From: Pseudomonas antarctica
Lineage (GTDB): Bacteria > Pseudomonadota > Gammaproteobacteria > Pseudomonadales > Pseudomonadaceae
Direction: 5' to 3'
DNA: 64,000 nucleotides
Assembly: GCF_001647715.1 (NCBI RefSeq)
Contig: NZ_CP015600.1
Location: forward strand, 4,092,001 to 4,156,000
Shown: positions 1-12,302 of the stretch, in pieces
Position numbering within the stretch: position 1 is the first letter of the stretch
How the letters are laid out: every line of letters begins with the position of its first letter
Notes under the pieces: generated by a model
Database searches by the model: none
Told to the model about the DNA's origin: nothing
Seen by the model: the letters and a program-made list of their open reading frames with translations, nothing else
Made by a program: the position numbers and the translations under genes

Positions 1-632
1 TCAGTGAAGCGGTCGAAACGCTGCTGACTCAGCATGTAAAAGTCATCGCAATGAGCAACAATTTCATCAACGTTGTGTGATGAAACCAACACCGCAACCC
101 CTTCCGCCGCCGCGCCCTCCAGACATCTCCAGATGTGGTAGCGAAATTCAGGATCCACGCCTGCAGTAGGCTCATCAAGAATCACAAAGTCCGCGTTGGC
201 ACAAAGCAGGGAAAGGGTGAAAAAACAACGTTTTTCCCCGTAGCTGCAAAGAGAGGACTTTTTGTTCCAGATTTCGCAGTATCGTTCTGCGATACCAGGG
301 CTCCATTTTTCGATTTTATCGAGCGCATGTTGTTGGGTGACCTTTTTGTCGGAGCAAAAAAGCATGGTCATTTTGAAGATATCGAACATGCGAAATACGG
401 GCGGTGTGCTGACGATTTGCGACAGGTAAAGCAGCTTGGAGAAGGAGCTGTTTATCTCACCGCCATTTATTTTCTTGAGACCACAAATCACATCAAAAAA
501 GGTGGTTTTGCCAGAGCCGTTAGGACCCAGCAAACCCGAGATCATACCGGCTTCAACTCCCAACGAAGCGCTTTGGAACACGACATGACTGGCATACCTG
601 ACATGAAGTGAGCTTACGATAAGTCGCGCCAT
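1..632 (-). CDS. ABC transporter ATP-binding protein, McbF-like (3'-truncated by window edge)
   Basis: This is the ATPase of the presumed export/self-protection ABC transporter of the azole-peptide cluster; it would power the membrane protein encoded just upstream. Reading the minus strand from ATG at 632 gives 210 codons without a stop, running off the window. Visible motifs: Walker A GPNGSGKT (residues 36-43), Q-loop Gln72, Walker B FVILDEP (149-155) and H-loop His186. The signature motif is degenerate (CSYGEKR near 129-135 instead of LSGGQ). Its ATG shares the A of the preceding stop (TGATG), so the two are probably translationally coupled. Position and order match mcbF of the microcin B17 operon, but the sequence alone only proves an ABC ATPase. 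A pentapeptide immunity gene (mcbG) could lie beyond the left edge. Confidence 0.85.
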   Translation of the reverse strand, partial: MARLIVSSLHVRYASHVVFQSASLGVEAGMISGLLGPNGSGKTTFFDVICGLKKINGGEINSSFSKLLYLSQIVSTPPVFRMFDIFKMTMLFCSDKKVTQQHALDKIEKWSPGIAERYCEIWNKKSSLCSYGEKRCFFTLSLLCANADFVILDEPTAGVDPEFRYHIWRCLEGAAAEGVAVLVSSHNVDEIVAHCDDFYMLSQQRFDRFT

Positions 633-1384
633 CAATAACGACTCCACACTGGATTAATTATTAAAAATCGAACCATCACCACAAATAAAAACACCAATAA
701 AACGAAAACCACCAAAACAACAAGCCAGTATTCCGCGACCCCAGCCAACATCACCCTATTTGCCCACCACATAGGGTTAATAAACTTGACGTAAGCAAGC
801 ATTGGACTGGAGGAATTGAGACTGACTATTCCCAACGCCAACATCGCCAGAGACAACATGGAAAAAACAGTACTCGCATTCTGAAACCCTAGAGGGACCA
901 ATGTCAGCAACAATGAGGGTATAGAGAACATCAGGAAACAGACATAAAATCGCCCAATAACGACTAGATACTCCGCAACCCCAGCACTACCGGCAACACC
1001 AGAGGCATTGCGTGTCAGCACGTAGAAAACAGAGCAGTACACTATCGAAACAACCGAATAGGCAAGGAACTGCCCAACAAGAAAGATAATTTTCGTGCGA
1101 CCTGTATAAACGAAAGACCGCAGAAAACCACTTTCTCTTCGGCCCACTATATAAAACGCCAAACCAAACAATGCAACGCTTGAAGACACAAAAGCATAAA
1201 ACCATGAGGTGCTGGAAAAGTAATCGCTTGGCGCCTTACTCACTGGCGCCCTCGTGTACATGATCAGATAGTAGGTCACCACGGGAGAGATCACTGTCCA
1301 AAACAATGCCACAGGCTCTTTTAATTGCTCCTTCACAAATAGCGCAGCCAGCCTAACGGGCTTGAACAAGGAATACGGACTCAT
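632..1384 (-). CDS. McbE-like ABC transporter membrane protein
   Basis: A 250-residue hydrophobic protein with about six predicted membrane segments (for example around residues 28-43, 62-82, 100-123, 140-165, 172-192 and 222-245). It probably forms the membrane channel that exports or extrudes the modified peptide together with the ATPase encoded immediately downstream. It starts 8 nt after the YcaO gene and its stop overlaps the ATPase start (TGATG). Length and place fit McbE of microcin B17 (about 240 residues). Assignment to the peptide system is by operon context; the sequence itself shows only an ABC-2-like integral membrane protein. Confidence 0.8.
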   Translation of the reverse strand: MSPYSLFKPVRLAALFVKEQLKEPVALFWTVISPVVTYYLIMYTRAPVSKAPSDYFSSTSWFYAFVSSSVALFGLAFYIVGRRESGFLRSFVYTGRTKIIFLVGQFLAYSVVSIVYCSVFYVLTRNASGVAGSAGVAEYLVVIGRFYVCFLMFSIPSLLLTLVPLGFQNASTVFSMLSLAMLALGIVSLNSSSPMLAYVKFINPMWWANRVMLAGVAEYWLVVLVVFVLLVFLFVVMVRFLIINPVWSRY

Positions 1385-1392
1385 TATTCACC

Positions 1393-2586
1393 TCACGGAA
1401 ACGGGACCATCTTTTCCAACCGGGAGCGCAGTATCGAGGACTTGAACCCTCTCGAATATTTATTCTTTAAATTGAAATTTTTCGAATTATTCATATGAAG
1501 GAACACGTCAGGAGAGACAAACTTAACAAAAACACAACCTACTCCATTGACCTTCTCGAACCTTGAATAAAAATAACCCAAAATATCCAACTGTTTGAGT
1601 ATCGACAAGAATCCGGGAAGGGTAAATGGGTGCTGAGACGCCACACCTCCGCACTCTAGAACGTCGGTAATCTCCTGATAGGTTTTATACGTATTGCAAC
1701 TCAGGAAATAACGAATATAGGAGTCTTCAAGCATCGCCTCTTCCGAATCAGTCGCCTTGAACAAGTCCATAAACCGAAACGTTTGCCATAGTTCAAGCAA
1801 CGCCTTCTCCAAGGCGACAGGCAGGTCCGACGAATAGGACATCCCGGCACAATATTTTACGTGACGCTGAGTTTGTTTCTGCCCATAAACAACCAGTATA
1901 CAAACGCCAGGAAACCTGGCATCGGATATATCAAAAAAGCTTATTTCTCCTGAAGCAGCCAGAGCACTACATAAGTACTGAACACTTCTCCCCACTAGCA
2001 TTTCACTCACGTGAGCAAGAGAAACTCGAGAGCGGCATTTCTTCGTCAGCCAGAACCTGATAAGCATTTGGCGTTCAAAGTATTCCTTAATTGCTCCCAA
2101 GAAGGCGACATCTGAATGCCAGTGAAAGCTACACCCACATGTATCTCGCAGGGGATAAAGCACGCTATCCTCATCTGCACCATACGACGAGAGCGAAATA
2201 CAAGCGGTAGGAATAAAACACTTAGTAAAGTCCGACGCCCTAACCACTTCAGTCAAAGCAAAGTTATACTCTTCAATTTCCCCGATTGAAAATTTCCTGG
2301 ACGCCGTCTGAATAAATGCTTCTGCAAAACGACACACCTCAGGCTCTGTTAAAAATTCACCAAGACAACCTCGTCGTCTTGGAAGAACTTCTCTGTAAAA
2401 ATGACGACGCTCAAAATACTCACCCAAACCTGTTTTAATTGAATTCGAACCATCCCCCACACCAGACCCGTTCGCGGACAGGGCATCTGACACTTCTACA
2501 GTATTAGGTAAGGAGCGCACGCACGCAGGCTGAAATAATAGTATTCCGGGGAGATCTGGCTTCTGCATTGCATTAATAAGTCTCAT
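1393..2586 (-). CDS. YcaO-domain cyclodehydratase subunit, McbD-like
   Basis: Likely the ATP-dependent YcaO cyclodehydratase that phosphorylates backbone amides so that Cys and Ser side chains of the precursor close into azolines. The 397-residue length matches McbD (about 396). YcaO-type stretches are visible: GLGEYFERR near the N-terminus (nucleotide-binding ExxxER type), AIKEYFERQ in the middle, and ALEKALLELWQ resembling the third ATP/Mg-binding helix. The protein ends in MVPFP; proline-rich C-termini are known to reach the active site in azoline-forming YcaO proteins. The start overlaps the McbC-like gene by 14 nt. An alternative ATG lies six codons downstream at 2568 but has no better ribosome site. 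Sequence is AT-rich relative to the chromosome around it. Confidence 0.82.
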   Translation of the reverse strand: MRLINAMQKPDLPGILLFQPACVRSLPNTVEVSDALSANGSGVGDGSNSIKTGLGEYFERRHFYREVLPRRRGCLGEFLTEPEVCRFAEAFIQTASRKFSIGEIEEYNFALTEVVRASDFTKCFIPTACISLSSYGADEDSVLYPLRDTCGCSFHWHSDVAFLGAIKEYFERQMLIRFWLTKKCRSRVSLAHVSEMLVGRSVQYLCSALAASGEISFFDISDARFPGVCILVVYGQKQTQRHVKYCAGMSYSSDLPVALEKALLELWQTFRFMDLFKATDSEEAMLEDSYIRYFLSCNTYKTYQEITDVLECGGVASQHPFTLPGFLSILKQLDILGYFYSRFEKVNGVGCVFVKFVSPDVFLHMNNSKNFNLKNKYSRGFKSSILRSRLEKMVPFP

Positions 2587-3379
2587 GCTGTTTACCTATA
2601 AAATGAACGCACATTGGAAAGAACAAAGCAGGGTTAATCCCGAGAACCTTACAAAGCATCGAGTCTGTATACGCAGACCACAGCCGACACGCCAGCCCCA
2701 GCTTTTTAGCTTGCAGTTCCACAAGCATATAAATTGAGCCAACTTCCATAAGTGCCATCCGGTACCCACGGTACCGATACTTGAACAAATTTTTCGGCAT
2801 ATAGCTTACGTAAATGAGCGCAAGGCTGGGTGTTCCGATGTCATGGGGAGAAGACAGCAGGGCCGCTTTTAGCGCTTCGATGTCCGTGTCAATCTGCATC
2901 ACTTCAAATTTTCGGGATCTCGGGAGTAAATGCAAAATTTTCCCAGCGCAGGGCCAGTTAGAATTCTCCTCAGTCAGTGAACAGAGAAAAACTTCGGCAG
3001 GGTAAAGTGCACCGCCTCTTGGATATCCTCTTTTGTGTGAATCATTCCTCCTTGAAAGCAATGGACACATCAATTTTTCAACATCCGTAAAATCTAAAGG
3101 CAGAGGTAAAAACCGTTCACACGATTCATTTCTGTACAACGATTTAACTCTTTCTTCCTGAGGCAAGGTGAACGTCACTGTCAAATCCAAGTCTGGATAA
3201 AAAGCCAATTCATTCCCTGTTAGTTGCCCGAGGTGCTTTTCATCCAACCGATGCAGACAGGTGCGATCCTTGATCGCCTTATGAAACGTAAAATTGCCTT
3301 TGCAATGAAATTCAAGCACTTCATCATACACTGCGGATTCTATGAATCTTAAATAGTAGTCATGAGGAATATTTTTCAC
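2573..3379 (-). CDS. McbC/SagB-type FMN-dependent azoline dehydrogenase
   Basis: Predicted flavoenzyme that oxidises azolines in the precursor to aromatic thiazoles/oxazoles. I place the start at GTG 3379: it overlaps the upstream stop as GTGA and follows a strong AGGGGAG ribosome site, giving 268 residues (McbC has 272). A TTG at 3397 is a longer but less likely start. The nitroreductase-fold signature RGGALYPAEV (121-130) resembles the SagB family motif, and Lys200-Tyr201 in NLFKYRYRGYR matches the catalytic Lys-Tyr pair of McbC. The C-terminal part (MALMEVGSIYMLVELQAKKL) is typical of the family. It sits between the McbB-like and YcaO genes, as in microcin B17. Confidence 0.87.
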   Translation of the reverse strand: MKNIPHDYYLRFIESAVYDEVLEFHCKGNFTFHKAIKDRTCLHRLDEKHLGQLTGNELAFYPDLDLTVTFTLPQEERVKSLYRNESCERFLPLPLDFTDVEKLMCPLLSRRNDSHKRGYPRGGALYPAEVFLCSLTEENSNWPCAGKILHLLPRSRKFEVMQIDTDIEALKAALLSSPHDIGTPSLALIYVSYMPKNLFKYRYRGYRMALMEVGSIYMLVELQAKKLGLACRLWSAYTDSMLCKVLGINPALFFPMCVHFIGKQHETY

Positions 3380-4233
3380 TTTTCTCCCCTCAAGCAATCA
3401 CACATGTACCAGTGCGAATTAGGCTCTTCGAAAATCTGGCCATCGGTTAATTGAAGGTATGCGCCATGCAGAATATTGTCCTGGTATTTACAACCGTCAC
3501 TGTATTGAGTGAAAAATTTTATCATTCTGATAACCGCACCGACAACGATCATCTCTTGATAAAGGCTAAGTGACTTGGCAGGGACACCCACATGCTTTTT
3601 CCTACAAAAAGCCAGAACACTCGCCCAACTATTTTTGCCCGGCATCATCGACTCATTATTATTAAGCCTGTCGACGGTACAGAAATGACAAGGATTTCCT
3701 ATCTCTGCAATATAGGGCTGCCCCATACAAAAAAAGTTACCCATTTGCCAGCACACGCTAATGGCGCTTTCGGGCGATGCGTACGCGAGTTCGAAATATA
3801 AACTTTTAACACTTTCATATTCATAGGAATGACACAACAAAACAATGAAGCATCTCTTACCCCGGACCCGCTCAACCATGCCACTTGAAAACGACTTAAA
3901 TTCCAGACTGCCAGAAACATCTTTCTTAATCAACGCTTCAACATCAACCTGACCTTGCCAGTCATGGACAACTATCGTCTCTTCAAAATACACTTCCTCC
4001 ACAAACTTAAAAGGAATAATTCTTTCTAGAAACTCAAACGCCTTATTTTTACTCAGGCCGTTTTCCGTTAGTACCTCATCAAACTCTACTCTCGTCATCA
4101 CCTTCGACAGCTTTAGTTTACGTAATGCTTTCAGCAACGGCTGCGAGTGGACTTTCGACATTCCAAGCTCAGAAATGACTAGGCTTTCCGTTTCAAAATT
4201 TAGGATCTCATAATTGGGTATGATTATATTCAT
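3376..4233 (-). CDS. McbB-like cyclodehydratase partner / leader-peptide recognition protein
   Basis: In microcin B17 synthetase, McbB (E1-like fold with a winged-helix recognition element) binds the leader peptide and activates the YcaO partner. This 285-residue protein has the same length class, the same gene position, and a Cys-x-x-Cys plus Cys-x-Cys set (Cys182, Cys185, Cys278, Cys280) suited to a structural zinc. The N-terminal 90 residues (EFDEVLTENGLSKNKAFEFL) look like a winged helix, as expected of a peptide-recognition element. ATG 4233 is preceded by AGGAG (4242-4246) with good spacing. A strong hairpin lies just upstream. Primary sequence conservation in this family is low, so the call leans on the Cys pattern, length and neighbours. 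Confidence 0.8.
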   Translation of the reverse strand: MNIIIPNYEILNFETESLVISELGMSKVHSQPLLKALRKLKLSKVMTRVEFDEVLTENGLSKNKAFEFLERIIPFKFVEEVYFEETIVVHDWQGQVDVEALIKKDVSGSLEFKSFSSGMVERVRGKRCFIVLLCHSYEYESVKSLYFELAYASPESAISVCWQMGNFFCMGQPYIAEIGNPCHFCTVDRLNNNESMMPGKNSWASVLAFCRKKHVGVPAKSLSLYQEMIVVGAVIRMIKFFTQYSDGCKYQDNILHGAYLQLTDGQIFEEPNSHWYMCDCLRGEK

Positions 4234-4248
4234 AGCACGATCTCCTGT

Positions 4249-4280
4249 AGAGGTTTTCTGTAGTACGCCAGAAAACCTCT
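4249..4280 (-). promoter_or_regulatory. Perfect 12-bp hairpin between precursor and mcbB-like gene
   Basis: Arms 4249-4260 and 4269-4280 are exact reverse complements (AGAGGTTTTCTG / CAGAAAACCTCT) around an 8-nt loop. It lies in the 68-nt gap after the precursor stop and ends just before the ribosome site of the McbB-like gene. No U-run follows on the minus strand, so it is more likely an RNA-stability element or a partial attenuator that keeps precursor transcripts in excess over enzyme transcripts than a full terminator. Confidence 0.7.
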
Positions 4281-4301
4281 TTAGGTGAGTGATTACTGAA
4301 T

Positions 4302-4502
4302 CTACTCAGCCGCTGTTGGATGCTCCGTTATCGAATTATGACACCCACCACTTCCTCCGTTACATCCACCGCCGCCGCCACACCCTCCGCTACCACCGCA
4401 GCCTCCTTGACTGCCAGACGCACCGGCATTACCTGCATACGGGTTAAAACCATACTCCGCATCAAAACTAAAAATAAACTCTCCAAACTCTTCATTGGCC
4501 AT
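4302..4502 (-). CDS. Gly/Cys-rich precursor peptide of a microcin B-like azole peptide (McbA-like)
   Basis: 66-residue peptide, start chosen at ATG 4502 because a GGAGAG ribosome site lies 6-7 nt upstream; the in-frame GTG at 4544 has none. The N-terminal half is a leader: EFGEFIFSFDA (residues 5-15) resembles the SEFGVVLSVDA leader of E. coli McbA, the stretch read by the synthetase. The C-terminal half is the core, with runs of Gly, four Cys (35, 41, 47, 54), each in a Gly-Gly-Cys context, and Ser at 29, 31, 38, 51 and 57. Gly-preceded Cys and Ser are the sites microcin B17 synthetase converts to thiazole and oxazole. Unlike microcin B17 there is no adjacent Cys-Ser pair, and an acidic tail (ITEHPTAAE) follows the last Cys. 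It is the first gene of the operon. Modification and activity are inferred. Confidence 0.85.
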   Translation of the reverse strand: MANEEFGEFIFSFDAEYGFNPYAGNAGASGSQGGCGGSGGCGGGGGCNGGSGGCHNSITEHPTAAE

Positions 4503-4672
4503 TTCAACTCTCCAACTTCCGTACCTGCGTTGATCGTGAGCCACTTATTAACAAGCGACAAAAACACTCTAGCCCTACCTAAAAAAATGGCAACACTTTC
4601 AAAAACCTCATCTAGGAAGCCTGACTATCAACAACAGGAAGTTTCACTCAAAAAAATCGGACGCTTAATGGT

Positions 4673-4700
4673 TGTATAAAACACTAAAACCGCATTTCAA
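4673..4700 (-). promoter_or_regulatory. Candidate sigma-70 promoter of the azole-peptide operon
   Basis: On the minus strand TTGAAA (4700-4695) and TATACA (4678-4673) are separated by 16 nt in an AT-rich stretch, pointing to the precursor gene and leaving a leader RNA of roughly 165 nt. This is pattern matching only. Confidence 0.45.
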
Positions 4701-5551
4701 CTTAGATGACAACATCAAAACTTTATAAAATTAATACGTTACGCATTGTCGACCTATAAAAACAAACAAGTTCTATCGCAAACGTTTTTTGTAGGAAGAA
4801 GATCACATTCACAAAAATCAGGAAATAATCCGACAAATGGTTCAACTCAACCTGACCTTCCGAACAAAGATGCACCCCTAATTGGAATCCACTTCGTCAC
4901 TAAGCAATCAATTCATCTTGTTGATGTGCACCGCCACCTGTCCTTTACCGCCCGACCGACACTCCGTCCCGTTACGAATAACCCCGAACCGAGTAAACCG
5001 CTCCGGAAGCGACACCGGCAAGGTCTTGTCGTGGGTTACTACAGGGTACTTGGCTACGTCCCCCACAGGATCTGGGCTGCCAGGCAAACACCAGGGGCAG
5101 CACCAGCGACTGTCTATCAGCCGGGCCCAGACGCTCAAACGGTTGTTGCAGCGGCAGGCATGGCGCTTGTAGATGCCCCTTGAATTCCGCTGGTTGATGC
5201 CCCTAGGCACACCCGATTGGGGAGCGCGGCCAGAGCAATGGATTCAGTTAGCCCAGGCGGGTGAATGCGCCAGGCTCGATGATCTGTGGATTCCGGCAAC
5301 TGCGTTGTGCTCGCCATACCCCGCGGGTCCAGTTGTCGGTGAGCGTGCCGCCGGAAGTGATGTTGCCGACGACGCTGGCGCCCCTCCCTCTGCAGAGCTT
5401 GCAATCGATCAGCAGCCATCGTGTGCAGTTGCACCTGCCGAACAGCAAGCGCACCGCATTTGGCGAATTGAAGTGCGCCCCATGTACAAACTGAACCACC
5501 GCAATCGGAAGCAAGCCCCCTCTCACGATTAATTGTATTTCAACTCAATCT
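4701..5551. other. Gap without a recognisable gene between the azole-peptide operon and the NRPS
   Basis: About 850 bases in which several short overlapping frames are open on both strands, but none has a good ribosome site, a recognisable domain or clear Pseudomonas codon bias. 4701-4900 is AT-rich like the peptide operon; 4950-5551 is GC-rich. The minus-strand frame 5526-5248 and the plus-strand frame 5173-5532 are the longest in the GC-rich half; neither was recognised. It may hold remains of genes displaced when the peptide operon arrived. Confidence 0.4.
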
Positions 5552-8500
5552 TCAGATTCGGCGGCGGCGGTTGAGTTGGGGGATCGCGGTTTGAGGGGCC
5601 TCTACGCGTGACACCTGCGCCACCGTGCACGCGGCCAACTGCGCCAGTGTCGGCTGACTGAATAAGGTTCGCGCATCCACCGCCAGCCCTGCCTTGCGCA
5701 GGCGCGCCACCAGGTTTACCGCCAGCAAGGAATGCCCGCCCAGTTCGAAGAAGTGGTCGTGGCGCCCTACCCGCTCCAGCTTCAAGACGTCGGCCCAGAT
5801 ACCCGCCATCAACGTTTCCACTTCGCCTACCGGTGCTTCATAAGCACGACTCACCACCGACTCCAATCCGGGCTCCGGCAGCGCCTTGCGGTCGAGTTTG
5901 CCGGCGGGGTTGAGGGGTAATGCGTCAAGCTGGACAAAGGCCGCCGGCACCATGTATTCGGGTAATTGCTCCAGCACATGGGCGCGCAAGGTTTCCAGGG
6001 TCGGCGCCTGGCCGCGCAAGGTGAAATACGCCACCAAACGCTCATCGCGAATCAACACCGCCACCTCTCGCAACGCCGGGTGCGCCGCGAGGCGTGACTC
6101 GATTTCGCCCAGCTCCAGGCGCACGCCGCGCAATTTCACTTGAAAGTCATTGCGCCCCAGGAATTCCAGGTTGCCATCCGGCAAGTAACGCACCAGGTCG
6201 CCGGTGCGATACAGACGGTCGCCGACCACGAAGGGGCTGTCGATAAAACGCTCGGCAGTCATCTGAGCCAGCCCCAGGTAGCCGCGGGCAACGCCGACAC
6301 CGCCGATATGCAACTGGCCGCTGACGCCCATTGGTACCGGTGCATCGTATTCATCCAGCACGTACAGGCGGGTATTGTTGATCGCCCGCCCGATCGGCAA
6401 TTGCCGGGTGGGCACCGGCGCATCCGGCTCCAGAGTCCAGGCGCAGCTGTCCACGGTTGCTTCGGTGGGGCCGTAGACGTTGTGCAATCGCACCTTGGGC
6501 AAGCGCGCCTGCACGCCACGGGCCAACGCTTCGGAGAGTTCACCGCCGCCGCACAAAACGTCAGTGAGGCTGGTGCAGAGGGCCGACTCCTCCAGTTCGA
6601 GAAACTGCTGCAACATCGCCGGCACAAACTGAATCACGGTGATGTGCTGCTCGCGAATCACCTGTGCCAGGTAGGCCGGGTCGCGATGACCATCGGGCCG
6701 AGCCAGTACCAGGCGCATGCCATTGGTCAACGGCCAGAACAGCTCCCACACCGAACCGTCGAAGCTGAACGGCGCCCTTTGCAGCAACGCACCGCCCTCG
6801 GCGTTCGGGCACAGCAGGGAAGCCCAATGCATCAGGTTGCCCAGGCCGCGATGCTCAACCATCACGCCCTTGGGTGTGCCTGTGGAGCCTGAGGTGTACA
6901 TCACATAGGCCAGGCTGGCGACGGTCAAGCCTGGCACCAATGGGTTACCGGTTGGCGCCTGGCTCCAGGCACAACGGTCGAAGTCGAGAACCGGGATCGA
7001 CACTTCGCCCGGCAGATCGCGGGTAGCGGCCTGCACCAGCAGCACCACGGGGCGACTGTCTTCGAGCATGTAAAGGAGGCGCTCGCGCGGGTAGCCCGGG
7101 TCCAGTGGCACATAGGCCCCGCCCGCCTTGAGGATCGCCAGCAATCCCACCACCAGATCCAGGCCGCGCTCGACACACAGCGCCACCCGTGAATCGGGCT
7201 GCACCCCGCGCTCGCGCAGGTGGAAGGCCAACTGATTAGCGCGCTCGTTGAGCTCGCGGTAGGTCAATTGCCGTCTACCGGCTTGCACAGCGATGGCATG
7301 CGGAATGTGGCGCGCGTGGGCTTCGAACAATGCGTGTACGGTGAGGTTTTCGGGGTAGTCGGTTTCGGTCGTATTGAAGTCCACCAATAACCTGCGCAAC
7401 TCACTGGCGGGTAACACCTGCACCTCGCGCAAGGGCGCTTTCGGCGTGTGTTCAAGCGCGTCCACGAGCCCGTTGAGCACGGTATCGAGATAGCCCCAGA
7501 GTCGTTCGGCGCCGACCTTGCAGGGCGCCATGACCTTGAGATCAAAGCCGCTTGCGACATCAATCACCGTGACCATCAGCGGATAGCTGAGGATATCTTC
7601 ACTGCCGAGCAAAGCGACGCCTGGCACCAGCTTGAAATCCATGTCGGCACTGGCGTGTCGGTAGTTGAGCAAGCTGTTGAACAGCGGCGACGCGCTGCTG
7701 CAACGCTGGGCGAGCGCAAGGGACGCCTGTTCATGCGCCAACAAAGCGCTCAGCTGCGCGTGAGTGTCACTCAGCGCGTCGACCACGGTTTGCCCGGCCA
7801 GCCGCACACGCAACGGTAAGGTGTTGATGAACATGCCGAGGGCACGGTCGGCGCCCTCGCCCGCTTGCAAACGGCCCAGCAGCACGGTGCCGAACACCAC
7901 GTCGTCGCGCCCTGACACCTGCCTGAGTACCTGGGCCCAAGCCAGGTGAAACAGGCTGGCGGCGCTGACCCCAAGAGCACGCGCCTGGCCGCGCAGGCGT
8001 TGGCTGAGGGCGTCGTTTATCGGGCATTCAAAGGCTTCGATCTCAGCACGATCGACCTGGTGCTCCTGCATACCGAAGGCCAGGGTCGGCTCGTCGACAG
8101 TCGCCAATTGCTCTCGAAAGAACGCCTCGTGAGCGGCCTGTCGCTCAGTGCAGCGGCTCTGCGCCACGACATTGCGATACGGCACCGACGCGGGAAGCTG
8201 CGCCTGTTGACCCAGCATATGCGCGCGAATTTCGTCCGCCAGTACCGTCATTGAAGTGGCGTCATTGACCAGGTGGTGGAAGCGCAACTTGGCGATCCAG
8301 CGCTGGTTGTGCGGGTCTTCGGCATAGTCCAGCGCCATCAGCGGGGCCTGGCGCAAGTCCAGCGGCGCATGCTGTTCGCTGAGCGGTCCGAGCGGCAAGC
8401 GAGCTTCGCGCCACACCACTTGCATCGGCTGCTCAAGAGCGTCCCACACCAGGCTGGTGCGCAGGATATCGTGGCGGTTGATCACTTGCTGCAAGGCCTG

Positions 8501-11500
8501 AGCAAACGCGTCCAACTGCTCGCGACGCGCAAAGCTGAACATCGCATGTTGCTGGTAGAGGTCGCGCTCGTCGGTGATGTGATGGTAGAGCAAGCCTTCC
8601 TGCAACGGCGCCAGCGGGTAGATTTCCTGCACATTCGCCGCGCCACCGGGGATACCGGCGACAATGCGCTCAAGGCTGTCCGGGTCGAGTTCAGCCAGTG
8701 CGAGCATGTCTGCCGTGATATGGGTACAACCTGACGGAATCCGATTGGCAGGCACGTGCACGTCGCTGCCACCCGTGACCGCTGCCAGCGCGGCGAGCGT
8801 CGGCTGGCCGAACAGCACCTGCACATCGGCATGCAACCCTGCCTGACGCATGCGTTGTACCAACTGCACCGCCAACAGCGAGTGCCCGCCCAGCTCAAAG
8901 AAATGGTCATGCCGCCCGATCTGCCGCACTTGCAGTAGCTCGGCCCAGATCTGCGCCAGTCGGGTTTCCACACCCTCGCGCGGCGCCTCGAACAAGCGCG
9001 TGACAAACGCCGCCTGCGTGGGTGCAGGCAGCGCCTTGCGGTCGAGTTTGCCGTTGGCGGTCAGGGGCAGCACATCCAGCTTCACATAGGCCGCCGGCAG
9101 CATGTAGTCCGGTAGCGAGGCTTGCAGATGGGCCCGTAGCCCTTCGATGGCGACGCTGTGCTGCGCAATAAACCAGGCCAGCAGTTGACCTTCGCGATAC
9201 TGCACCACCGCTTCCTTGACGGCAGGATGGCTGGCCAGCGCGGACTCGATTTCCCCCAACTCGATACGCACACCACGGATTTTCACCTGGTCATCATTGC
9301 GCCCCAGGTATTCAAGATTGCCATCGGGCATCCAGCGCGCGAGATCGCCGGTGCGGTACATCCGGCCTTGACTGAAAGGGTCGTGCAGAAAGCGCTCGGC
9401 GCTCAGCTCGGGACGGTTCAGATAACCGCGCGCCACGCCCTTGCCGCCGACGTACAACTCCCCCGCCACACCGATGGGCACCGGCCGTTGCTGTTGATCC
9501 AGTAAATAGACCGTGGCATTGGCGATTGGCCCGCCGATATGCAGCGGCCGGCCGCCCTCGACACGCCCGGACGTGGCGACCACGGTGGCTTCGGTGGGGC
9601 CGTAGTTATTGATCACATCGAAGGTCTGCGCCCGCGTGAAGGTGCGCAAGCGGTCGCCGCCGATCAGCAAGGTGCGCAGGGTCGGATGCTCCAGGCGCTG
9701 GCTGAAGGCGTACTCGGCCACCGGTGTCGGCAGAAAGCACACGTACAACGGCTGCGCGCGCCACCAGTCGAGCAGCGCGTCAATGTCTTCGGCGCCGTCG
9801 TGCGCCGGCGCCAGGTGCAGCGTCGCCCCCACGCACAGCGCCGGCCAGACCTCCCAGGCCATCGCATCAAAGCCGAACCCGGCCACGCTGGCGGTGTGGC
9901 TGCCCGCGTGCAGGTTGAACGCCCGGCAGTGCCAGTCCACCAGGTTCGACACTGTGTGGTGCTCGACCATCACACCTTTGGGCAACCCCGTAGAACCTGA
10001 GGTGTAGATCACATAGGCAAGGTTTGATGGTGTGACCACCACACGCGGGCTGTCACTGAGGGCGCAGGTTTGCTGATCCAGCCGGATCACCGGCACGTCC
10101 AGCATGGGCAGGCGCGGCAGCACGTCATGCTGGGTCAACACCGCCACGGGTGAACTGTCGTGCAGCAGGTAGTTCAGGCGCTCGGCGGGATGGGCCGGGT
10201 CCACCGGCACATAACAGGCGCCGGACTTGAGAATCGCCAACAGCCCGACCAGGGTGTCCAGCCCGCGTCGGGCCACGATCGCCACGCGATCATCCGGCTG
10301 TACGCCGTGTTCCAGCAGTTGATGAGCCAGCGCATTGGCCTGCTGATCAAGTTGGGCATAGGTCAGTTGCCGCCCCTGGTACACCGCCGCGATAGCCTCC
10401 GGAGCGCGCGCAGCTTGCGCTTCAATGCGCCGGTGCAGGGTTTGCGGTGTGGCATTGGGCTGTGCAGTGGCATTCCACTGCTGCAGCTGGGCCTGTTCGG
10501 CGGGTGTCACCAGGGAAAACTCGGCGACCGTCAACGCGGTGTTCTGCAACCCCTGCTCCAGCAGACTGGTGAAGCGCTGCGCCAACGCCTGTACCTCGTC
10601 ATGCCTGAAATACGCCTCGTTGTACACGCAATGCAGGCACGCGGTGTCCTGGTAACGGTTGCTGCGCAGGTGGATGGCAATCGGCAGCGGCTCATGGTGG
10701 TTGGACACCTTGATCGCACGAGCCTGGACCTGACCATAACGCAGGTCATGGTCGTCTTGCTCGAAGGACACCGACAGATCAAACAGCTGGCCGCGATCGG
10801 ATCGTCGCAGGCCCAGTTCACGGTTCATCTCGCTCAAAGGGAAACGCTGGTGGCGAAAGTCCTGCTTGAGCTGGTCACGCACGCCACGCACGAGTGCGCT
10901 GAAAGGTAGTTGCTGATCGAACTGAAACCGCACCGCACTGACTTGGGCAAACAACCCTACTGTGGAGCGAAACCGCGCGTTGGAACGGTTAAGAATCGGC
11001 AACCCCACCACCCACTCATCGCGCTGGCTGGTGCGGGTGAAATACACGTACATCGCGGCCAGCAGCACATGGAATGCCGAGGCCTGGTAACGGTTGGCCA
11101 CTTGTTCCATCCGGTTGAGCAGTGCCACCGGAAACGGTTCTACCAGAGTGTTACTTGGCGCCTGGGCGTTGTGCCGAGGTGCCAACAATGGCTCGGGTAA
11201 TGCCTTGTATTTATCCAGCCAGTAGGCACGGTCGCGGGCATAACGGGCGGACTGGAGGTAGCGCTGGTCGGTGTCGATAAAGTCGATATAGGACGGCGCA
11301 TGCGGCTCCGGTGGCCGACCCTGCTTCAGGTCGGTATAGAGACGAGCCAGGGATTGCAGCATCTGGCCGAAGCCCCAGCCGTCGAGGATCAGGTGATGGG
11401 CCTGGGTGCCGAGGCGGTAATGGTCGTCGTCGAGCTTGACCAGGAAAAAGCGAAACAGCGGTTCACCGGCCATGGCATAGGGCCGCGCCATTTGCGCTTG

Positions 11501-11821
11501 CATCAAGGCCTGGGCGGCCGTCTGCGGATCGGGCAATGCGCAGAAATCGTGGTGTGGCACCTCCACCTTCAACGTGGCGGCGAAGGTTTGCCGGGGCAAG
11601 CCGTTGGCGTCGCTGTGCAGTTGGGTACGCAAGGCATCGTGCTTGGCTACCAGCAGCTCGACGGCACGCTGGATCAGGTCCGGCACGATCGGGCCGGCGA
11701 AGTCGACATACCCACCAATGTTGTACAGCGGCGAGTTGCCCACGCGCAGTTGGTCGAGCCAGATGTCCTGTTGGGCGGCAGTGAGGGGGAAGCTGGGCGG
11801 CAGGCTGGTGGAATGCTTCAT
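5552..11821 (-). CDS. Bimodular lipopeptide NRPS (C-A-T-C-A-T), ViscA/MassA-like
   Basis: About 2089 residues from ATG 11821 (AGAAGGA ribosome site; the GTG at 11848 lacks one). Module 1: condensation domain with HHLILDGWG (~137), adenylation core YTSGSTGLPKG (~604) and carrier motif LGGHSL (~975). Module 2: condensation domain with HHLVNDA (~1181), adenylation core YTSGSTGTPKG (~1640), carrier LGGHSL (~2024). No thioesterase follows. My alignment to the PheA pocket gives DAWFLGNVVK for module 1, a known Leu code, and DGWQLGVVDK for module 2, closest in type to Gln/Glu codes. The first C domain would be an acyl-loading starter; the second has dual condensation/epimerisation character (YPLAPLQEGLLYHHI). 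Divergent luxR-nodT and a Leu-Glu bimodule match viscA/massA, whose partner synthetases are encoded elsewhere in the genome. Confidence 0.9.
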   Translation of the reverse strand: MKHSTSLPPSFPLTAAQQDIWLDQLRVGNSPLYNIGGYVDFAGPIVPDLIQRAVELLVAKHDALRTQLHSDANGLPRQTFAATLKVEVPHHDFCALPDPQTAAQALMQAQMARPYAMAGEPLFRFFLVKLDDDHYRLGTQAHHLILDGWGFGQMLQSLARLYTDLKQGRPPEPHAPSYIDFIDTDQRYLQSARYARDRAYWLDKYKALPEPLLAPRHNAQAPSNTLVEPFPVALLNRMEQVANRYQASAFHVLLAAMYVYFTRTSQRDEWVVGLPILNRSNARFRSTVGLFAQVSAVRFQFDQQLPFSALVRGVRDQLKQDFRHQRFPLSEMNRELGLRRSDRGQLFDLSVSFEQDDHDLRYGQVQARAIKVSNHHEPLPIAIHLRSNRYQDTACLHCVYNEAYFRHDEVQALAQRFTSLLEQGLQNTALTVAEFSLVTPAEQAQLQQWNATAQPNATPQTLHRRIEAQAARAPEAIAAVYQGRQLTYAQLDQQANALAHQLLEHGVQPDDRVAIVARRGLDTLVGLLAILKSGACYVPVDPAHPAERLNYLLHDSSPVAVLTQHDVLPRLPMLDVPVIRLDQQTCALSDSPRVVVTPSNLAYVIYTSGSTGLPKGVMVEHHTVSNLVDWHCRAFNLHAGSHTASVAGFGFDAMAWEVWPALCVGATLHLAPAHDGAEDIDALLDWWRAQPLYVCFLPTPVAEYAFSQRLEHPTLRTLLIGGDRLRTFTRAQTFDVINNYGPTEATVVATSGRVEGGRPLHIGGPIANATVYLLDQQQRPVPIGVAGELYVGGKGVARGYLNRPELSAERFLHDPFSQGRMYRTGDLARWMPDGNLEYLGRNDDQVKIRGVRIELGEIESALASHPAVKEAVVQYREGQLLAWFIAQHSVAIEGLRAHLQASLPDYMLPAAYVKLDVLPLTANGKLDRKALPAPTQAAFVTRLFEAPREGVETRLAQIWAELLQVRQIGRHDHFFELGGHSLLAVQLVQRMRQAGLHADVQVLFGQPTLAALAAVTGGSDVHVPANRIPSGCTHITADMLALAELDPDSLERIVAGIPGGAANVQEIYPLAPLQEGLLYHHITDERDLYQQHAMFSFARREQLDAFAQALQQVINRHDILRTSLVWDALEQPMQVVWREARLPLGPLSEQHAPLDLRQAPLMALDYAEDPHNQRWIAKLRFHHLVNDATSMTVLADEIRAHMLGQQAQLPASVPYRNVVAQSRCTERQAAHEAFFREQLATVDEPTLAFGMQEHQVDRAEIEAFECPINDALSQRLRGQARALGVSAASLFHLAWAQVLRQVSGRDDVVFGTVLLGRLQAGEGADRALGMFINTLPLRVRLAGQTVVDALSDTHAQLSALLAHEQASLALAQRCSSASPLFNSLLNYRHASADMDFKLVPGVALLGSEDILSYPLMVTVIDVASGFDLKVMAPCKVGAERLWGYLDTVLNGLVDALEHTPKAPLREVQVLPASELRRLLVDFNTTETDYPENLTVHALFEAHARHIPHAIAVQAGRRQLTYRELNERANQLAFHLRERGVQPDSRVALCVERGLDLVVGLLAILKAGGAYVPLDPGYPRERLLYMLEDSRPVVLLVQAATRDLPGEVSIPVLDFDRCAWSQAPTGNPLVPGLTVASLAYVMYTSGSTGTPKGVMVEHRGLGNLMHWASLLCPNAEGGALLQRAPFSFDGSVWELFWPLTNGMRLVLARPDGHRDPAYLAQVIREQHITVIQFVPAMLQQFLELEESALCTSLTDVLCGGGELSEALARGVQARLPKVRLHNVYGPTEATVDSCAWTLEPDAPVPTRQLPIGRAINNTRLYVLDEYDAPVPMGVSGQLHIGGVGVARGYLGLAQMTAERFIDSPFVVGDRLYRTGDLVRYLPDGNLEFLGRNDFQVKLRGVRLELGEIESRLAAHPALREVAVLIRDERLVAYFTLRGQAPTLETLRAHVLEQLPEYMVPAAFVQLDALPLNPAGKLDRKALPEPGLESVVSRAYEAPVGEVETLMAGIWADVLKLERVGRHDHFFELGGHSLLAVNLVARLRKAGLAVDARTLFSQPTLAQLAACTVAQVSRVEAPQTAIPQLNRRRRI

Positions 11822-12302
11822 AAGATCCTTCTCATGGGGGTCAGGCACTGGCCGCGCAGGGGCCCATTACGCCGAAATTGCCGGATTTGAGCATGGGGGT
11901 CGGGGCCTGTCTGTCACCCTAAACCCGGACATCCGAGGGGACAGAACCGGGTCTGGCTGATGGTTCATTGCTGGATCGATTAAAGCGTTGTAGGAGATTG
12001 GCTATATCTGGCCGCTGTGGTTTTCTCCAGCGTGTTTAGCTGAAATTATTTTTCGTTAAATATCATATGGTTAAATAATCCTAAAATTCGTTTGTGGCTT
12101 TTCGTGGGTGGCATCCGCCGTCAGAAACGTCGAATTAATGACGTGGACTTTATGGCAGGTTGTGTCCCTCGTTTCCGCTACATACGTAGGACAAATCGCT
12201 ATGGCTAAATAAAATCTCGAACGCCGAGTTACGTTCAAGGAGTACGGATAGCCCCACACAGACCCAGGGCGTCCGTTGACGGTTTTCGACATCAAGGATG
12301 AG
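11822..12302. promoter_or_regulatory. Divergent control region between NRPS and luxR-type gene
   Basis: About 480 bases with no supported gene. The middle part (about 12045-12110) is strongly AT-rich and probably carries the promoters for both the NRPS (leftward) and the regulator (rightward). I could not pick a convincing lux box or a unique -35/-10 pair. Confidence 0.45.

Follow-up and report, generated by a model that had tools for sequence, protein, structure and literature searches.

A chromosomal microcin B17-like operon without mcbG in Pseudomonas antarctica, and relatives that carry only its exporter genes

Background

What kind of peptide would a microcin B17-like operon without the gene mcbG produce, and what would protect its owner? 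This question is raised by six genes at the left end of a 64,000-nucleotide stretch of Pseudomonas antarctica DNA (NCBI RefSeq assembly GCF_001647715.1, contig NZ_CP015600.1, positions 4,092,001 to 4,156,000; the whole stretch is called the window). We conclude, with a probability of roughly 0.88, that they form an operon on the chromosome whose product is a linear, azole-bearing peptide antibiotic of the McB (microcin B17) type, which would be both exported and guarded against by McbEF.

Published work is cited below by PMC number. We assign the operon with high confidence to a published class, the mcbG-less McB-like clusters of pseudomonads, with which it shares the same six genes and the absence of mcbG. 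Microcin B17-like clusters of pseudomonads are described in PMC7136475, where mcbG is absent from the majority and those without it are group 2, and P. fluorescens strains with the same six genes and no mcbG ("microcin B17-like") are described in PMC8719888. A cluster of P. antarctica PAMC 27494, with McbEF as the transporter, is given in PMC6100412, and 30 clusters in Escherichia coli and Pseudomonas were counted in PMC4603692 (2015).

Results and discussion

The operon and its proteins

The genes mcbA-mcbB-mcbC-mcbD-mcbE-mcbF lie consecutively on the minus strand, from position 4502 to position 1, in the same order as in E. coli and as the initial annotation had described. The gene mcbA (4302..4502) encodes a precursor of 66 residues with a leader, a Gly/Cys/Ser core and a C-terminal tail; mcbB (3376..4233) encodes the E1-like synthetase partner, mcbC (2573..3379, GTG start) the azoline dehydrogenase, and mcbD (1393..2586) the YcaO cyclodehydratase. 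These are followed by mcbE (632..1384) for the membrane subunit of the exporter and by mcbF (1..632, plus 82 bases further left of the window; frame end L003:11919) for its ABC (ATP-binding cassette) ATPase. The genes mcbB and mcbC overlap in GTGA, mcbC and mcbD overlap by 14 nucleotides, and mcbE and mcbF meet in TGATG; from these joints a single overlapping, translationally coupled unit had been proposed. However, there are gaps of 68 nucleotides between mcbA and mcbB and of 8 nucleotides between mcbD and mcbE, and thus the genes form one operon-like array in which the overlaps do not run throughout.

All three synthetase proteins matched the solved E. coli synthetase (PDB 6gos). In the comparison with the E. 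coli operon the identities are 22% for McbB and 34-35% for McbC and McbD. McbB was aligned with E 3.7e-13, including the CHFC and CxC cysteines, and its CxxC (182/185) and CxC (278/280) motifs occupy all four positions named in the initial annotation. NCBIfam TIGR04424 matched McbB with 232.2 bits (cut-off 65), and a Pfam search of McbB gave no family over the cut-off. McbC was aligned with E 2.5e-41, the stretch FKYRYRGYRMALME being identical, and contains the Lys200-Tyr201 pair that had been pointed out; it scored 24.3 bits for the Pfam nitroreductase family (cut-off 23.5) and stayed below the NCBIfam SagB cut-off (63.5 vs 78.4). McbD matched Pfam YcaO (E 5.7e-17) and, over residues 13-397, the McbD of 6gos (E 8e-58). 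Its C-terminus, MVPFP, is invariant among 11 aligned McbD proteins, and its score was far under the cut-off of NCBIfam SagD (25.8 vs 219.25), which represents another subfamily. These profile and structure-database matches back the earlier proposal that this is a pseudomonad operon for an azole peptide like microcin B17. As for the exporter, McbE is 29% identical to E. coli McbE (198 amino acids, E 2.6e-26), with zero matches in Pfam and NCBIfam searches, and McbF contains ABC_tran (E 5.1e-14) and is 34% identical to E. coli McbF (E 8e-37).

By analogy with the microcin B17 pathway, McbB would bind the leader of McbA, McbD would use ATP to convert Cys residues of the core, and Ser residues beside Gly, to azolines, and McbC would oxidise the azolines to thiazoles and oxazoles. 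The leader would then be trimmed by a chromosomal TldD/E protease, and the peptide, with a presumed antibacterial action, would be pumped out by McbEF, which may thereby confer immunity. Genes of the TldD/PmbA family and of the SbmA/BacA family are present in the genome.

An operon that is intact in sequence may nevertheless be silent or decaying in this strain, and decay is frequent in relatives (mcbD is broken in genomes G052 and G382, and the operons at loci L055 and L066 are wrecks). However, all six reading frames are uninterrupted here and have the usual length, and a Shine-Dalgarno-like sequence precedes mcbA; we regard silence or decay as unlikely.

The precursor and its core

The leader of McbA has the E-F-G residues near its start, as in E. 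coli. The boundary between leader and core, with the predicted cut site, is probably at about Gly24-Asn25-Ala26. The core contains Cys35, Cys41, Cys47 and Cys54 together with Ser29, Ser31, Ser38 and Ser51, and beyond HNSI58 there is a C-terminal tail, which E. coli McbA does not have. The calculated monoisotopic mass of residues 25-66 without modification is 3533.34, and each ring would lower it by 20.026, to 3453.24 with four rings and 3413.19 with six; for residues 25-58, should the tail be cut off, the unmodified value is 2696.98. When the core was inspected for an adjacent Cys/Ser pair, none was found, and therefore a bis-heterocycle is not possible in this peptide. Bis-heterocycles are particularly essential in microcin B17 (PMC7680869).

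For comparison, McbD was searched for in 398 Pseudomonas genomes and matched in 27 of them (26 of 397 besides our own), at least two of these genes being broken. A scan of named genomes with the alignment of the 11 McbD proteins gave 44 loci, 40 from Pseudomonas and the others from Tenebrionibacter, Erwinia, Kosakonia and Mixta. The resulting 67 Pseudomonas loci (our own, 26 and 40, some genomes occurring twice) yielded 61 precursors, of which 44 were distinct. The sequence GGCGGSGGCGGGGGC was exact in 41 of the 44 distinct precursors, and leaders and tails were variable. The residue next to the Cys of GGGGGC was Ser in 20 of them, Asn in 18 (our own included), Lys in five and unclear in one. 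With Ser at this position a thiazole-oxazole pair like that of microcin B17 could form, which Asn and Lys do not allow. The Cys-Ser pair was kept in all six enterobacterial precursors, all of which have mcbG. The idea that mcbG and the bis-heterocycle go together was considered and rejected, since the cores without mcbG are themselves split between these residues and give no clean link.

A broader precursor search found one protein labelled P. syringae (P0038) among the best 120 of 127 matches. Four precursors from other collections (P0097, P0103, P0111 and P0121) are seemingly shortened inside Gly-rich repeats.

Between mcbA and mcbB the minus strand contains a perfect hairpin of 12 bp (4249..4280). 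A helix of at least 10 bp was present in 38 of 52 distinct mcbA-mcbB intergenic regions from Pseudomonas and enterobacteria, compared with 7 of 520 mononucleotide shuffles, and the folding energies gave z-scores from -1.9 to -9.3 (40 shuffles per region). The sequence of the hairpin varies by lineage and its form is kept; no T-run follows the hairpin of our operon. We would guess that it raises mcbA above the level of mcbBCD.

The absence of mcbG and the target of the peptide

No mcbG follows mcbF in our operon, as in the mcbG-less group of pseudomonads. The initial annotation had suggested looking for a McbG-like pentapeptide gene to the left of base 1, and this place is taken by a convergent glycosyltransferase gene. 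A search for a clear mcbG orthologue elsewhere in the genome gave only generic pentapeptide repeats (best E 8.5e-5, 24.5 bits); a functional stand-in is conceivable. By tblastn with two McbG proteins and a count of repeats, none of the 67 Pseudomonas loci showed mcbG; five of them (L050, L051, L062, L087 and L102) end at most about 510 bases past mcbF, too early for mcbG to be excluded there. The tblastn search gave matches in two loci only, each time away from the operon (L103, E 0.21; L110, E 1.1), and counting repeats gave false positives on mcbE in L075, L077 and L079. In contrast, mcbG was present in all six enterobacterial loci. A McbG search of a large protein set found 27 proteins with E values of at most 1e-20; all names shown were enterobacterial, and many of the proteins carried no name. 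With mcbG absent, the locus showed no means of immunity other than McbEF.

For the mcbG-less clusters of pseudomonads, PMC7136475 argues that the target is probably not gyrase, and we lean slightly towards a target other than the gyrase contact of the E. coli type. Under an alternative explanation, the peptide simply poisons gyrase, as microcin B17 and the P. syringae peptides do, and strong export makes mcbG dispensable. Gyrase is the target of both (PMC7680869, which cites this for the microcin B17-like peptides of P. syringae), three of the four Cys residues of the E. coli core (C41, C48 and C55) are aligned with Cys in our core, and in the case of microcin J25 immunity by the exporter alone suffices (PMC7680869). 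However, besides the published opinion, the lack of an adjacent Cys/Ser pair and the distribution of mcbG, not found in the Pseudomonas loci and constant in the enterobacterial ones, speak against this explanation, to which we give a real chance, somewhat short of even. An altered gyrase in the producer was also considered. Trp751 and Lys447 of GyrB are the positions named for resistance (PMC7680869), and both are unchanged in an alignment with E. coli GyrB, the one subunit compared, in which the residues were counted by eye.

Exporter genes without a synthetase

McbE was found in 56 of the 398 Pseudomonas genomes, namely in all 27 that have McbD and in 29 that do not. McbB matched in 28 of the 398; 25 of these matches were near full length, all of them in McbD-positive genomes, and those in G175, G245 and G317 were fragments or weak. 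We examined all 29 loci that have mcbE only (L142-L170, called orphans here), and mcbF is directly next to mcbE in every one. Remnants of McbB, McbC or McbD were found in four of them (L142, L150, L151 and L161).

Furthermore, a scar of the mcbD end within 130 nucleotides before mcbE was recognised by a first pattern in 9 of the 29 loci and in 20 of 2792 control stretches of the same loci, and by a stricter pattern, which was defined after scars had been seen, in 10 of the 29 loci and in none of the 2792 controls. In L148 a piece of the mcbA core precedes the scar. Both flanks of our own locus (the end of a nonribosomal peptide synthetase gene and the glycosyltransferase gene) were shared, over at least 1.7 kb, by four of the 29 orphans (L149, L151, L165 and L166); in L153 the left flank is present, with a short match at the right side, and the locus of L162 comprises only 1.5 kb before mcbE.

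In a tree of McbEF from the 56 genomes, orphans and full operons were interleaved, with at least 19 changes in the presence or absence of mcbD, a parsimony count made without a shuffled control on a quick tree that has 14 weak branches among its 55 inner ones. The ratio of nonsynonymous to synonymous substitution rates (dN/dS) was low: 0.05-0.24 for mcbE and mcbF in nine orphan pairs, with two saturated mcbE comparisons set aside, 0.06-0.15 in four full-operon pairs and 0.06-0.14 in five mixed pairs; these 18 pairs were picked by hand, and part of the divergence may predate the losses.

It could be supposed that the orphan pairs never belonged to mcb operons and are housekeeping exporters of unrelated origin, as the strict scar is missing in 19 of the 29 loci and several orphan McbE proteins are just 33-36% identical to the query. 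This is very unlikely in view of the mcbD end in the other ten loci, the remnant of the mcbA core ahead of it in L148, the four orphans with both flanks of our locus, and the interleaving in the tree. The simplest reading is instead that mcbABCD was lost repeatedly and a useful pump was kept, which would amount to immunity without production, if McbEF has the role in immunity that we assume; many relatives that do not produce the peptide would thus retain the pump alone. We found no report of orphan mcbEF in Pseudomonas in the literature searched, the coverage of which was incomplete, and this does not show that the pattern is unpublished.

Five wrecked mcb operons were also seen, in which mcbE and mcbF remain: L055, where mcbD is nearly whole, and L066, L109, L110 and L111, where part of the 3' side of mcbD is left.

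From these observations a wider proposal can be made. The mcbG-less peptides of pseudomonads may be a family, our member of which has no possible bis-heterocycle, with a target or a target site unlike that of microcin B17; the two-gene pump may be the complete immunity; and production may have been lost many times with the pump under selection, so that immune non-producers would be about as many as producers in the genus. We offer this tentatively, and think it likelier to fail in some part than to hold as a whole. Several points weigh against our main reading, an McB-type operon guarded by McbEF whose peptide has a target other than the E. coli-type gyrase contact. The absence of mcbG is no proof of a different target, because McbEF itself also contributes to immunity to microcin B17 (PMC6795089), and the P. 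syringae peptides do target gyrase. Generic pentapeptide-repeat proteins occur elsewhere in our own genome. Twenty of the 44 distinct mcbG-less cores have Cys-Ser where our own has Cys-Asn; thus the loss of the bis-heterocycle and the absence of mcbG are not coupled. Klebsazolicin and phazolicin, which target the ribosome, come from the same set of cluster proteins (PMC7136475), and the core of phazolicin is positively charged in a ribosome-binding pattern (PMC7136475), whereas McbA has no Lys and no Arg after residue 24. Finally, mcbE or mcbF is damaged in three of the 29 orphan loci (L151, L153 and L156), and G245 and G317, with their fragmentary or weak mcbB match, have no McbE match, which means that remnants lacking the pump exist too.

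Genomic surroundings

The convergent gene to the left of mcbF encodes a glycosyltransferase of the PMT_2 family that is related to ArnT and scores under the cut-off of the ArnT model; arnT itself is the next gene beyond it (760 bits, cut-off 567). On the other side, directly upstream of the operon, a two-module nonribosomal peptide synthetase is encoded on the minus strand (window 5552-11866), with two condensation, two adenylation and two carrier domains and no match to a thioesterase. Such a synthetase also adjoins the mcb locus in several relatives. A Pfam search of the five frames in the interval of about 1 kb between mcbA and this gene (4560-5551) gave zero matches.

Relation to known systems and implications

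Among the loci closest to ours is that of the P. antarctica type strain (L068), with identities of 76% for McbB and 72% for McbD. With mcbABCDEFG of E. coli our operon shares the order from A to F, overlapping joints, the synthetase proteins, the E-F-G leader, the Gly/Cys/Ser core and the hairpin after mcbA; it differs in the absence of mcbG and of the adjacent Cys/Ser pair and in the presence of the C-terminal tail. Microcin B of P. syringae, reportedly the subject of a study by Metelev in 2013, is from the same genus and, by citation, from the same type of cluster. P. syringae clusters carry mcbG (PMC8719888), which our locus does not.

The operon is a test case for a question left open in PMC7136475, namely whether a McB-type peptide without bis-heterocycles, made without McbG, is still a gyrase poison. 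The genomes that have only mcbEF are natural variants in which it can be asked if the exporter alone gives immunity, and they suggest that producers, immune strains and sensitive strains may exist side by side among soil pseudomonads.

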